NCBI RefSeq assembly: GCF_021026095.1
Contig: NZ_JAJNCU010000008.1
Span: 182,497 to 246,496 of the forward strand
Length of the DNA stretch: 64,000 nt
Direction: 5' to 3'
Source of the DNA: Salinicoccus halitifaciens
GTDB taxonomy: Bacteria > Bacillota > Bacilli > Staphylococcales > Salinicoccaceae
Shown here: positions 6,219-58,948 of the stretch, piece after piece
How positions within the stretch are numbered: the stretch's first letter is position 1
Layout: each line of letters opens with the position of its first letter
Notes under the pieces: generated by a model
Databases searched by the model: none
What the model saw: the letters and a program-made list of their open reading frames with translations, nothing else
What the model was told of the DNA's origin: nothing
Translations under genes and position numbers: made by a program

Positions 6219-6262
6219 AGACATAATTGGAATCAGCTTTTCCCAGTTATGTCTTTTTTATT
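6219..6262 (+). terminator. terminator of NERD gene, formed by first array unit
   Basis: AGACATAATTGG (6219-6230) pairs with CCAGTTATGTCT (6242-6253), with one mismatch, and is followed by TTTTTTATTTG. The same two arms are the first alternating pair of the tandem array at 6220-6480, so terminator and array overlap. Confidence 0.7.
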
Positions 6263-6480
6263 TGATATTAGACATATAACTTTAATTTAGAGAGAGTTAC
6301 GCCGATTTTCATCAATAATCGACATAACTCTTTGGTTTACGCGGCTTTATGTCTAAATGACCTGAGAAAAGGCATAACTTTATTGATTGTTCCCTACTTA
6401 TGCCTAAATGATTTTGAAATCGACACAACTTATTTGAATAAGCATTATTTATGCCTAGTTACACCTCAAATCGATATATA
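6220..6480. repeat. intergenic 50-51 bp alternating-arm array A
   Basis: A short arm, consensus GACATAAC, starts at 6220, 6271, 6321, 6371, 6422 and, decayed, 6473. Its inverted form, consensus (G/T)TTATG(T/C)C, starts at 6246, 6296, 6346, 6397 and 6448. The period is therefore 50-51 bp and a forward and an inverted arm alternate about every 25.5 bp. The DNA between the arms is AT-rich and diverged, apart from CTAAATGA after the third and fourth inverted arms. The array fills the space between the convergent NERD and eno genes. Two further arrays with the same geometry but other sequences lie at 17297 and 58796. I know of no named element like this. Confidence 0.8.
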
Positions 6481-6514
6481 TCCTTCTCTTGTGGCCGGCC
6501 AGCACCACCACCCA

Positions 6515-6550
6515 CAAAAAGCCCCCCGCTTCACAAGAAGCGGGGGGCTT
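6515..6550 (-). terminator. terminator of glycolytic operon after eno
   Basis: Strong GC stem GCCCCCCGCTTC / GAAGCGGGGGGC (6521-6547 region) with T residues on both sides; on the minus strand CTTTTTG follows. It lies 5 bases after the eno stop. Confidence 0.9.
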
Positions 6551-6554
6551 TATT

Positions 6555-7856
6555 CTACACTTCCTCCAGGTTGAAGAAGGAGTCGAGGCCGTCATATTTG
6601 GCTGTTTCGTATAATTCGTCTTCGATGCGGAGCAGCTGGTTGTATTTGGCGACGCGGTCCGTACGGGACGGGGCGCCTGTCTTGATCTGTCCGGCATTCA
6701 CCGCAACCGCGATATCGGCAATCGTCGTATCTTCCGTCTCACCGGAGCGGTGGGAGATGACGGATGTATATCCTGCGCGCTTCGCCATTTCGATGGCTTC
6801 AAACGTTTCGGTCAAAGTTCCGATCTGGTTCACCTTGATCAGGATGGAGTTGCCGACGCCTTCTTCGATGCCGCGTGCGAGCTTCTCGGTGTTCGTTACA
6901 AACAAATCATCACCGACGAGCTGAACCCGGTCGCCGAGGCGGTCGGTCAGCAGCTTGTGGCCATCCCAGTCGTTTTCATCCAGTCCGTCTTCAATGGAAA
7001 TGATCGGGTATTTATCCACCATTTCAGCATACCAGTCGACCATTTCCTGGGATGTGAAGGTCTTGCCCTCTCCGGATAATTCATAAACGCCTTTTTCCAC
7101 ATTGTAGAATTCGGATGAAGCGGCATCCATTGCGAGTCGTATTTCCGTCCCCGGCTCATACCCTGCTCTTTCAATCGCTTCTATGATCGTGGAGAGTGCC
7201 TCCTCATTCGATCCGAGGTTCGGTGCGAATCCGCCTTCGTCACCGACAGCGGTGTTCAGGCCTTTTTCACTCAGCACTTTTTTCAAATTATGGAATATTT
7301 CAGCACCCATGCGCAGGCCTTCTTTAAAGCTTTCCGCACCTACAGGCATGATCATGAATTCCTGGATGTCGACGTTGTTGTCCGCATGCTCACCGCCGTT
7401 GATGATGTTCATCATCGGCACCGGCAGCTGCACAGCATTGAATCCGCCCAGATATTTATACAATGGTTGTCCAAGGAATTCTGCGGCCGCTTTCGCCACA
7501 GCTATGGATACGCCGAGGATTGCATTCGCCCCGAGCTTGGCTTTGTTCCCGGTGCCGTCAAGCGCAATCATCATCTTATCAATGGAGACCTGCTCCAGCA
7601 CACTGAACTCTCCTTCGATCAGTTCAATGGCAATCACTTCATTGACGTTTTCTACAGCTTTTTCCACGCCTTTGCCCATGTAGCGTGTATCATCCGCGTC
7701 ACGCAGTTCAACGGCTTCATATTCGCCTGTCGAGGCACCGGATGGGACGAGTGCGCGGCCGAATGCACCGCTTTCAGTCAGCACTTCCACTTCAACTGTA
7801 GGGTTACCGCGGGAGTCGATCACTTCGCGGGCATAAACATCTGTAATTATTGGCAT
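6555..7856 (-). CDS. eno: enolase
   Basis: A 433-residue enolase (2-phosphoglycerate to phosphoenolpyruvate and water), the full family length. The N-terminal cap carries [11 protein letters not shown] and the loop [10 protein letters not shown]. The TIM-barrel part has metal ligands in [11 protein letters not shown] and [10 protein letters not shown], the general-base Lys in [10 protein letters not shown] and the signature [19 protein letters not shown]. The protein is cytoplasmic; in staphylococci some is also found on the surface. An AAGGAG site precedes the ATG at 7856. It is the last gene of the pgk-tpiA-gpmI-eno run and ends at a strong terminator. A hairpin at 7884-7906 in the gpmI-eno gap may be an mRNA processing or stability site. 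Confidence 0.98.
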
Positions 7857-7883
7857 ATCGATATCTCCTTAAATGTATTTGTT

Positions 7884-7906
7884 CTCTTTCATTATGTGAG
7901 AAAGAG
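7884..7906 (-). other. intercistronic hairpin between gpmI and eno
   Basis: CTCTTTC (7900-7906 read on minus) pairs perfectly with GAAAGAG (7884-7890) around a 9-base loop. No T-run follows, so it is not a terminator. It may mark a processing or stability site in the glycolytic transcript; that is inference. Confidence 0.4.
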
Positions 7907-7935
7907 TGAATAATTTCAACAATAATAAAAATCCG

Positions 7936-57410: not shown

Positions 57411-58448
57411 CTAATTCCTCCTGTAAGTCAATTTTAAATCTGACCGGAGTTTTTCGACGTCTGCAAGTTCCAGCTCAATCGTTTCTTCCATGCCGCTGAG
57501 TGCATCTTGAAACAGTTCATGCCTGGACCTGCCAAATAATTTCGGGGCAATGTATAAAATCATCTGGTCGTAAAGTCCGCTCTTGATGAAGGCAGTATGT
57601 ATCCGGCTGCCGCCTTCAACCAAAACACTGCCGATATCGTAATCAATGTATAACTTCTTCAATATTTCCTCGTATGAAAAATCGCCGTATTCAATATCGT
57701 AAACATTATCGAATTCACGATTCTCCTCATTCGATGTGAAGATGACCGGTTTCTCCGGATGCTTTTCCAGGTTCAATCCCTCTGTAAGCATCCGTTCCCC
57801 GAGCAGGATGACGGGTCTCGGATGATTCCCCCCGCCCCCGATCCTTGCGGTCAGCATCGGATCGTCACGCATCAGTGTGCCTCCGCCGATGAGTATCGCG
57901 TCATGTGAATGACGCAGATGCTGCACATCTTCACGTGCGGACCCGCCGGTGATCCATTTGCTTGTGCCGTCATCAAGTGCCATCTTGCCGTCGAGACTCA
58001 TCGCACCCTTCAAAGTCACCATCGGCCGTCCGGCCGCCAGGTGGGTGAAGAACGTCTCGTAAAGTGCGTCCGCTTCATAATGCGGCTGATGCTCTGCATA
58101 AATCCCGGCCGCCTCCAGCACTTCGTGGCCGGAGACTTTTGGATTTTCATCCTGCACTGCGTAAAACACTCTTTTGATGCCGGCTTTTTTGATGGCATCC
58201 GTGCACGGCGGCGTCCTGCCGTGATGCGAACACGGCTCCAGCGTGACATAGATGTCTGCGCCTTCAGGGTCGGTGATGCATGATTTGATTGCACGCACTT
58301 CCGCATGATCCGTCCCCATCGCGAGATGGCTGCCTGCGCCGATCACCACGCCGTCTTTTACGATAACCGCACCGACCGGCGGGTTGCGGCGCGTCTGGCC
58401 ATCTGAAATTTTCGCCATTGCGATCGCTTTTTCCATGTAAATGCCCAA
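57411..58448 (-). CDS. ribD: bifunctional diaminohydroxyphosphoribosylaminopyrimidine deaminase / reductase
   Basis: A 345-residue two-domain enzyme for the second and third steps of riboflavin synthesis. The N-terminal cytidine-deaminase-like domain (about 1-145) has HAEVRAI and TLEPCSHHGRTPPC zinc motifs; the C-terminal NADPH reductase domain (about 146-345) has KGAMSLDGKMA and VEGGSRIHTAFI. The start chosen is a TTG at 58448, 6 bases after GGAGG; an ATG four codons later is too far from that site. First gene of the operon, read through the FMN riboswitch. Confidence 0.96.
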   Translation of the reverse strand: MGIYMEKAIAMAKISDGQTRRNPPVGAVIVKDGVVIGAGSHLAMGTDHAEVRAIKSCITDPEGADIYVTLEPCSHHGRTPPCTDAIKKAGIKRVFYAVQDENPKVSGHEVLEAAGIYAEHQPHYEADALYETFFTHLAAGRPMVTLKGAMSLDGKMALDDGTSKWITGGSAREDVQHLRHSHDAILIGGGTLMRDDPMLTARIGGGGNHPRPVILLGERMLTEGLNLEKHPEKPVIFTSNEENREFDNVYDIEYGDFSYEEILKKLYIDYDIGSVLVEGGSRIHTAFIKSGLYDQMILYIAPKLFGRSRHELFQDALSGMEETIELELADVEKLRSDLKLTYRRN

Positions 58449-58466
58449 GTCTTCCCTCCTGAAATA

Positions 58467-58500
58467 AAAAAAGCCCCGATGAAAAAATCTTCATCAGGAC
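58467..58500 (-). terminator. leader terminator of FMN riboswitch
   Basis: Stem CCTGATGA / TCATCGGG-type (about 58475-58499), followed on minus by GCTTTTTTTATTTC, between the aptamer and the ribD ribosome site. With FMN bound to the aptamer this hairpin should form and stop transcription. Confidence 0.85.
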
Positions 58501-58575
58501 TTAAAAATTGTATGCCAAATAATGTGGTGCATGAAAGCAACACAAACTAAACGTATCGTATAAAATACGTCTGCA

Positions 58576-58708
58576 TCATTCTCTCTCCCATCCAGACTCT
58601 AACTGTCGGCTTCAGATTTGCACTGAATCAGCCATACGCAATCAAACTGCGTACAGGTCGCGGGCTTTAACCGCCGGTTGGGAATTTCACCCTGCCCCGA
58701 AAGAATTA
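58576..58708 (-). promoter_or_regulatory. FMN riboswitch (RFN element)
   Basis: The conserved RFN core is clear on minus: GGGGCAGGGTGAAATTCCC, ACCGGCGGTTAAAGCCCGCGA, CTGATTCAGTGCAAATCTG and GACAGTTAGAGTCTGGATGGGAGAG, in that order. P1 is formed by ATTCTTTC (58699-58706) with GAGAGAAT (58578-58585). It senses FMN and controls the rib operon by termination at 58467-58500. Confidence 0.97.
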
Positions 58709-58733
58709 TATTCAGTTGAAAAACTCTAACCTA

Positions 58734-58761
58734 ATCATATACGAATAATAGGAATTGTCAA
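58734..58761 (-). promoter_or_regulatory. promoter of rib operon
   Basis: TTGACA (58756-58761) and TATGAT (58734-58739) with a 16-base spacer, starting transcription near 58727, some 20 bases before the aptamer. A TATAAT at 58705-58710 lies within the P1 stem and is unlikely to be used. Confidence 0.8.
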
Positions 58762-58795
58762 CCAAATGAGCCAAATATATTTTACTATTCTGGAA

Positions 58796-58948
58796 ATTTC
58801 GATTATCTTTCTGATTTCGGCCTGACTTAATCGATTCGGAGACCGGATTTCGATTATCTCTATACTTTCAGTCCAACTTAATCGATTACAGGACCGGATT
58901 TCGATTATCTTCATGATTTCACATCGACTTAATCGAATTTTGAAGGTG
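58796..58948. repeat. intergenic 51 bp alternating-arm array C (three units)
   Basis: The arm TTTCGATTATC has its CGATTATC core at 58800, 58851 and 58902, and the inverted arm CTTAATCGA has its TTAATCGA core at 58827, 58878 and 58929: exactly 51 bp period for both, with the arms alternating about every 25.5 bp. Parts between arms (ACCGG at two unit junctions) are also shared. It lies between the nrdF terminator and the rib promoter. The sequence is unrelated to arrays A and B but the geometry is the same. Confidence 0.85.

Follow-up and report, generated by a model that had tools for sequence, protein, structure and literature searches.

The window, a stretch of 64,000 nucleotides from Salinicoccus halitifaciens, holds three intergenic arrays in which a short forward arm and its inverted copy alternate. 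A sequence-only reading of this DNA had noticed these three; all are present, and the class to which they belong is larger than noticed, with 28 arrays in the 748 kb of the same genome (G000; 28% of its length) that we sampled. The arrays and their neighbours are these:

5282-6190, + strand: gene flanking array A
6220-6455, no strand: array A, five forward (GACATAAC-like) and five reverse (GTTATGTC-like) arms
6521-6549, readable on both strands: terminator-like hairpin separating array A from the end of the enolase-like gene
6555-7856, - strand: gene flanking array A, which we take to be enolase-like
16332-17246, + strand: gene flanking array B
17252-17286, readable on both strands: terminator-like hairpin between gene 16332-17246 and array B
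17299-17540, no strand: array B, five forward (GTGACACGAA) and five reverse arms, period exactly 51 bp
17558-18304, - strand: gene flanking array B
58576-58708, - strand: FMN riboswitch neighbouring array C
58797-58938, no strand: array C, three forward (TTTCGATTA) and three reverse arms, period exactly 51 bp
58966-59007, - strand: terminator-like hairpin of gene 59021-59989, located between it and array C; the hairpin fails the stricter terminator rule used in the array-wide hairpin count
59021-59989, - strand: gene neighbouring array C

Array A has degenerate arms (0-2 mismatches) at successive distances of 25 or 26 bp, giving a period of 50-51 bp, and is missed by Tandem Repeats Finder. Arrays B and C keep 51 bp to the base, as had been claimed, with arm distances of 28/23 bp (zero exceptions) in B and 31/20 bp in C. 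Seen by eye, the loops of array B, like some other loops, hold a second inverted pair. The location next to gene ends also holds, A and B lying between convergent genes and C between two same-strand genes. Over the whole window, Rfam matches above the gathering score are a tmRNA, the FMN riboswitch and one tRNA only, and the arrays are without a match.

An unbiased tandem-repeat search of the 748 kb sample, keeping only repeats with a score of at least 100 and at least two copies, found the 28 arrays outside long open frames; four more, in open frames of at least 250 codons (periods 36, 52, 60 and 60 bp), were set aside. The 28 have periods of 41 bp (four arrays), 42 bp (one), 50 bp (two), 51 bp (13), 52 bp (six), 53 bp (one) and 54 bp (one). 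The 42 bp array (L106), which is probably coding, was excluded from the similarity grouping, the dyad test and the placement count. The 51 bp geometry first described survives as a class of 50-52 bp, but beside it stands a separate class of exactly 41 bp that had not been foreseen. Scanning the same sample for chains with free spacing, 14-45 bp being allowed between arms, returned 29 alternating chains of at least five arms; one of them (L021:8722) falls inside a long open frame, and four are second pieces of one array. Each of five Markov-resampled versions returned none. The chain at L110:14931, like array A, escapes Tandem Repeats Finder. The outcomes named beforehand as speaking against a shared geometry were no excess of such arrays, or periods that differ freely, and in this 28% of the genome neither was seen.

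Arrays in relatives fall into the same length classes. Together with those of the window's own genome they make 41 arrays from at least five genera, which form two length classes and, by unit similarity, 27 groups, a count that depends on the score threshold and that separates array B from L025 although the two are related by eye. Most arrays are mutually unlike in sequence though alike in geometry, which bears out the earlier claim on a larger scale; several unrelated arm families coexist in G000, and one arm family may occupy several sites of a single genome. Composite arrays in Trichococcus contain 38 bp steps too, and a Cerasibacillus unit measures 21 bp; a pattern for the latter, run against 60 genomes of the order to which the window belongs, matched none of them. 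The lengths 41 and 50-52 bp, and likewise the 21 bp of Cerasibacillus, can be read as multiples of about 10.3 bp, although there are only two main lengths. At 10.5 bp per turn, 41 bp is 3.9 turns and 51 bp is 4.9 turns; helical repeats nearer 11 bp, as in vivo, would put 41 and 51 further out of phase.

Within arrays the spacing is close to invariant. Arms could be named by eye in 34 arrays (28 of the 41 grouped, together with A, L003, L005, L019:14011, L023 and L113:10467), the other 13 of the 41 being without arms clear enough for a spacing test. That test took 30 of the 34, leaving out L019:14011 and L023, which have few arms, L022, truncated where its stretch ends, and L113:2070. In these 30 arrays 261 of 264 arm distances lie at their array's mode, counting only arms no more than 2 bp off register, since larger shifts break the chain and go uncounted, and including one array (L019:90) fitted with the wrong mode (26/36). 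The half period of about 25.5 bp given earlier is right as an average, but the actual forward-to-reverse and reverse-to-forward distances are array-specific (26/25, 28/23, 31/20 or 32/20). Near 2070-2078 of L113, units of 29 and 33 bp occur, one 4 bp longer than the other, which counts against a length rule. Indels stand to substitutions as 20:865 in array DNA and as 12:119 in ordinary noncoding DNA compared with genome G002, although in each ratio overlapping BLAST pieces enter more than once, and the array matches include other sites. In the consensus alignments of Tandem Repeats Finder, the 41 arrays give 49 indels to 720 substitutions and the staphylococcal STAR repeats 9 to 70, a difference that is not significant (p = 0.10); since such counts carry artefacts, some consensus units being one base short, the arm-to-arm distance was used instead. 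Of the earlier proposal that spacing is either selected or fixed by copying, the first alternative is in keeping with both the 261 of 264 distances and the relative scarcity of indels.

The arms themselves are less strictly kept. Sixteen of the 41 consensus units show a dyad at p ≤ 0.05 (combined p = 1.5e-11) and 25 do not. Among the 21 arrays with a dyad at p ≤ 0.1, arms are more conserved than linkers in 17 (p = 0.003; difference 0.05), whereas among the 20 control arrays lacking such a dyad this is so in 13, with a smaller difference (0.02). At the site of array A, three Lacicoccus genomes carry the arms GACATAAC, GTGCCACGAA and GCGCTATA, with a period of 50-51 bp in all three species. At site B, where the DNA of G002 is 84% identical, a Salinicoccus metagenome-assembled genome shows an A-T to G-C change in both arms together, a paired change that would be expected of a two-way DNA site as well.

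Placement was possible for 24 of the 28 arrays, genes being called from open frames by a simple rule and not from annotation. Fifteen lie between convergent genes, eight between tandem genes and one between divergent genes; since convergent gaps make up 21% of intergenic bases, the preference is marked (p = 1.5e-5). Convergent ends may, of course, just be harmless places for arrays.

Several known systems invite comparison. CRISPR and TIGR arrays are regularly spaced, and two inverted repeats occur in TIGR units as well, but in array B and most displayed arrays the spacers are alike rather than unique. TIGR-Tas requires a Tas protein with a Nop domain, and neither that domain (PF01798; 4 of 14 control genomes positive) nor Cas1 (PF01867; 9 of 14) has a match in G000, in agreement with the earlier exclusion of CRISPR. 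The REP and BIME elements of enterobacteria share with these arrays the alternating inverted units, the extragenic position and the nearness to gene ends. In REP a Y1 transposase (RAYT) mobilises the palindromes, which belong to one family or a few, whereas several unrelated arm families are found here, and the Y1 transposase (PF01797), matched in 58 of 121 genomes of the class, has no match in G000; the exclusion of REP also stands. Minisatellites and VNTR loci (MIRU and SIRU, for example) likewise consist of intergenic units, tens of bases long, repeated in tandem, but their unit lengths vary widely between loci, in contrast to the 41 or 50-54 bp found here. The STAR elements of staphylococci (PMC3532100) are intergenic arrays too, their units of 50-60 bp combining a conserved motif with spacers specific to each locus; the arrays share with STAR the intergenic position, a similar unit size, the bacterial order and a similar habitat. 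STAR, however, keeps one GC-rich motif with loose spacing, whereas these arrays keep their spacing while the motif differs. Among the matches listed, STAR spacings range over 55-63 bp and neighbouring spacings are equal in 21 of 40, compared with 261 of 264 here (Fisher p = 2e-16, the two statistics being not quite alike). The STAR pattern TGTTGGGGCCCN{28,58}TGTTGGGGCCC occurs in 10 of 157 genomes of the order and has no match in G000, and direct comparison thus upholds the distinction from STAR. Our literature search, which covered few subscription papers, found no description of these arrays.

Constant spacing with varying letters suggests that some cell component reads or builds the arrays by length. 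Tentatively, and short of an even chance, we take them to be chromosomal DNA elements, lying mainly at convergent gene ends, whose spacing is selected and read by a putative protein assembly that measures helical turns. One alternative, that they are plain minisatellites or STAR-like repeats lacking any special geometry, their shared lengths reflecting common descent of a few arrays, is already disfavoured and seems to us quite improbable. Some arrays do share arms (one group of seven, two of three and four of two; B and L025 by eye), and STAR is similar in unit size and habitat, but 27 groups in at least five genera display the same two length classes. Since STAR drifts in length while its sequence is kept, similarity lost with length kept is unlike plain descent. 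It is improbable, though somewhat less so, that the arrays act as RNA hairpins, lying in a flanking gene's 3′ untranslated end and protecting or pausing its transcript, a role proposed for REP hairpins. Terminator-like hairpins flank 16 of 27 arrays on one side only (two on both sides, nine on neither), so transcription from one gene is possible for many of them; 24 of the 30 arrays have an even number of arms, that is, whole pairs, a count that also supports the DNA reading; the second inverted pair within certain loops, those of array B among them, would fit; and nine of 40 consensus units fold at z ≤ -2 against shuffles. The other 31 units do not, and local compensatory change between hairpin arms is absent in aggregate within arrays: arms match at 84.6% within a pair, 84.7% between neighbours and 84.8% between distant arms. 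In 48 Trichococcus hairpins local pairing is 3.44 of 5 positions against 3.30 shuffled (p = 0.11, not significant). Single Trichococcus hairpins appear compensated by eye. Mismatches on the inferred transcript strand are 31 G-U to 44 A-C (11 arrays); a strand-blind count, made on arms only since RNAfold itself favours G-U pairs, gave 54 G-T to 47 A-C, and a second count within pairs 52 to 43. Pairing no better locally than far away, with G-U unfavoured on the inferred transcript, argues against RNA hairpins, which would also leave the two exact lengths without a reason. Cruciforms as such, one role proposed earlier, fare no better: in arrays of the 51 bp class 16-25 bp separate two paired arms, and neighbours pair no better than distant arms.

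The equal match of near and far arms, as if each had decayed independently from a perfect founder, is what one might expect of the main rival, in which arrays arise by template switching or hairpin slippage, with the replication or repair machinery dictating steps of 41 or 51 bp; they are then tolerated where harmless, and the geometry is a birth mark. Arrays also come and go, site B carrying none in L. alkaliphilus or L. qingdaonensis, and arm families are found again at several sites of one genome. We regard such an origin as possible but doubtful. Indels should have accumulated after birth, at 12 per 119 substitutions to judge from DNA elsewhere, yet only 3 of the 264 in-register distances are off; the Y1 transposase match is absent from G000; and we know of no enzyme with such a built-in length ruler. 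Since the spacing is exact while the letters change, and indels are relatively more frequent in ordinary intergenic DNA, we favour selection on spacing over a ruler acting at birth only.

If the arrays are indeed elements read by a protein assembly, each would be a row of inverted short sites 41 or 50-52 bp apart, about four or five turns of DNA, on which the putative DNA-binding assembly would dock in alternating orientation. It may work only if successive units show the same face of the helix, and the spacing would then be under purifying selection. Several unrelated arm families in one genome sit awkwardly with one sequence-specific protein; the assembly might instead recognise shape through a single factor, or consist of several paralogous factors for different arm families. 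Its likely role would be to keep the DNA held or insulated where two transcription units converge; it might block read-through, for instance, or serve as an anchor that absorbs supercoils. The broader proposition, an element defined by length and not sequence, with inverted sites at exactly four or five turns between convergent genes in several genera of Bacilli, letters turning over at a fixed site, and either a ruler-like protein assembly reading the arrays or an enzyme making them, strikes us as rather unlikely.

Bacterial repeat families are usually recognised by their sequence. Here the geometry is conserved and the sequence is free, so that sequence searches would miss the class and only a period scan shows the arrays. 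Experiments on them are feasible, in bacteria not known to be harmful. If a protein reads the spacing, the arrays would amount to a naturally replicated experiment on DNA phase and the insulation of convergent genes; if a copying enzyme sets it, they would point to a new ruler.

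Three arrays of alternating forward and reverse arms, which a sequence-only reading had placed in the window, are all present at their positions:

Array A, 6220-6455: five forward and five reverse arms, 25 or 26 bp apart, periods 50-51; degenerate and absent from Tandem Repeats Finder output
Array B, 17299-17540: five forward and five reverse arms, distances 28/23, period 51
Array C, 58797-58938: three forward and three reverse arms, distances 31/20, period 51

The window lies on contig C10 of a 2.68-Mb genome (G000), whose closest match by triose phosphate isomerase is Lacicoccus alkaliphilus (85%). 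A 748-kb sample of this genome (28%) was surveyed with Tandem Repeats Finder (minimum score 100, periods 18-250, arrays in open frames of 250 codons or more set aside), which is blind both to inverted arms and to the number 51. It reported 28 arrays, with periods of 41 (four arrays), 42 (one, probably coding), 50 (two), 51 (thirteen), 52 (six), 53 (one), and 54 (one), and no other period in the range covered; four further arrays, with periods 36, 52, 60, and 60, lie in long open frames. A chain scanner that left arm distances free found 29 alternating chains of at least five arms in the same sample, including four that are the second piece of an array and one (L021:8722) in a long open frame, and none in each of five Markov-resampled versions. 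Of the 29 chains, 25 have modal periods of 50-52, in keeping with the shared 51-bp geometry proposed earlier, but this is not the only geometry: a second period, 41, occurs (two chains; the remaining two are at 75 and 82). Extrapolation from the sample suggests that the whole genome holds on the order of 100 arrays. One seven-arm chain of 50-51 bp (L110:14931) went unreported by Tandem Repeats Finder, and at L103:698-1340 a 52-bp and a 51-bp array of different families stand side by side in one intergenic stretch.

Within arrays the spacing is nearly exact. In 30 arrays with nameable arms, 261 of 264 successive in-register arm distances equal their own array's mode and each of the other three is one base short, in a test that leaves uncounted any shift of more than 2 bp, because it breaks the chain, and that excluded L113:2078 (one unit 4 bp longer) and 13 of 41 arrays whose arms were too unclear. 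In STAR, by contrast, spacing drifts: among the pairs listed, neighboring spacings are equal in 21 of 40, and periods run from 55 to 59 (43 pairs, two genomes). Compared with G002, a genome of a close species, ordinary noncoding DNA carries 12 indels to 119 substitutions and array DNA 20 to 865, although both figures repeat overlapping pieces and the array figure also takes in matches between different sites.

The sequences, as had also been claimed, are unlike. The 41 arrays of period 40-54 from the Tandem Repeats Finder survey (minus L106) fall into 27 groups when a unit's local similarity score must exceed all 400 shuffled comparisons, a threshold-dependent count that separates array B from L025, although the two are related by eye. 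The largest group comprises six arrays with TTTCGCAAC arms and window array C. The TTTCGCAAC-arm pattern has eight matches in G000, eight in G002, and none in 31 further genomes searched within the family, so that this arm family, at least, is restricted to closely related species, whereas the lengths are common to several genera. At the intergenic site of array A, downstream of the enolase-like gene, the window has a period of 50-51 with GACATAAC arms; L. qingdaonensis has period 51 with GCGCTATA arms; and L. alkaliphilus has an array with steps of 51 and GTGCCACGAA arms (three pairs by eye, of which an arm search recovers three arms, spaced at 28 and 51 bp). The window's array recurs at site B in G002, with six units, and the Salinicoccus MAG UBA3372 has a 51-bp array with A-T changed to G-C in both arms; L. 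alkaliphilus and L. qingdaonensis have no array there.

Arrays are sparser in other Lacicoccus and Salinicoccus sequence, where 639 kb yielded period 41 four times and 51 twice (long open frames added one of each). Genus g3 of the window's family (220 kb) gave 41 twice and 51 once; Cerasibacillus (161 kb), 52 three times and 21 twice; and Trichococcus (273 kb, including one record labeled Sedimentibacter), 50, 51, and composites of 104, 190, and 200. These composites place 38-bp steps next to steps of 49-51, and the length rule is therefore less strict in Trichococcus. Other Bacillota (1.70 Mb) held seven arrays, with periods 33 (three), 40, 41, 42, and 75, and samples of about 61 kb each from Staphylococcus canis and Shouchella clausii held none of the 41 or 51 class.

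Trichococcus patagoniensis (G015) has very large hairpin arrays of up to 1.8 kb (L128:1789-4700, 7440-8435, and 16332-19983), in which steps mostly of 49-52 bp, with some of 38, make up 104-, 190-, and 200-bp higher-order units. Two Cerasibacillus quisquiliarum arrays (L134:6378-6493 and 16897-17119) have AAATCGCGCGACC-like units of 21 bp, about two helical turns. In Salinicoccus albus one 41-bp family forms three arrays (L181:1-475, L181:5344-5532, and L199:16587-16780) spanning about 37 kb of a single contig, and a fourth 41-bp array of other sequence (L181:15762) lies inside a 278-codon open frame. A 42-bp array in the Bacilli genome G203 (L227:15695-15830), outside long open frames, has no inverted arms by eye.

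In 16 of 41 arrays the unit shows dyad symmetry that is significant at 0.05 (combined p 1.5e-11). Conservation is higher in arms than in linkers for 17 of the 21 arrays with dyad p at most 0.1 (p 0.003); in the other 20, the best dyad arms are better conserved in 13, by a smaller margin. Arm number is even in 24 of 30 arrays (23 of 29 without the orthologue array L003; p 0.002), indicating complete arm pairs. Of the 24 arrays that could be placed, 15 are flanked by converging genes, whose intergenic DNA makes up 21% of intergenic bases (p 1.5e-5), eight by tandem genes, and one by divergent genes. A terminator-like hairpin stands within 170 bp on one side of 16 of 27 arrays, on both sides of two, and on neither side of nine.

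STAR and REP/BIME, as intergenic repeat arrays, are the closest known kind, but what they keep is sequence, and what is kept here is length. The earlier judgment that the arrays are not CRISPR, REP/BIME, or STAR is supported by the defining features tested: neither the Cas1 feature of CRISPR, the Y1 transposase feature of REP, nor the features of STAR were found, nor was the Nop domain feature of TIGR or a match of the arrays to Rfam families. One genome of the same order, G146, is STAR-rich, the pattern matching 67 times in forward and 67 times in reverse orientation, against a total of 37 in the runner-up among 157 genomes. Literature searches, with PMC3532100 and PMC13155455 among the papers covered, turned up no description of these arrays.

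Were the arrays selected as RNA hairpins, arms should fit better within one hairpin than between distant arms. Arms match equally well within a pair (84.6%), between neighbors (84.7%), and far apart (84.8%), and mismatches comprise 31 G-U and 44 A-C (11 arrays, transcript strand inferred), with no sign of RNA pairing; both results disfavor an RNA hairpin array. If neighboring arms need not pair, the inverted arms are most plausibly a single site on double-stranded DNA, read in either orientation. Two near-exact lengths ten bases apart would be expected if successive sites had to present the same face of the helix at a separation of four or five turns, although the main lengths are only two and both 41 and 51 stop slightly short of whole turns when a turn is taken as 10.5 bp. 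A DNA-bound assembly sitting where genes converge could stop read-through or absorb supercoils. The main rival to this reading, a copying mechanism with a ruler that would set the array lengths, accounts for the equal match of near and far arms, but it does not explain why spacing remains exact as the letters decay.
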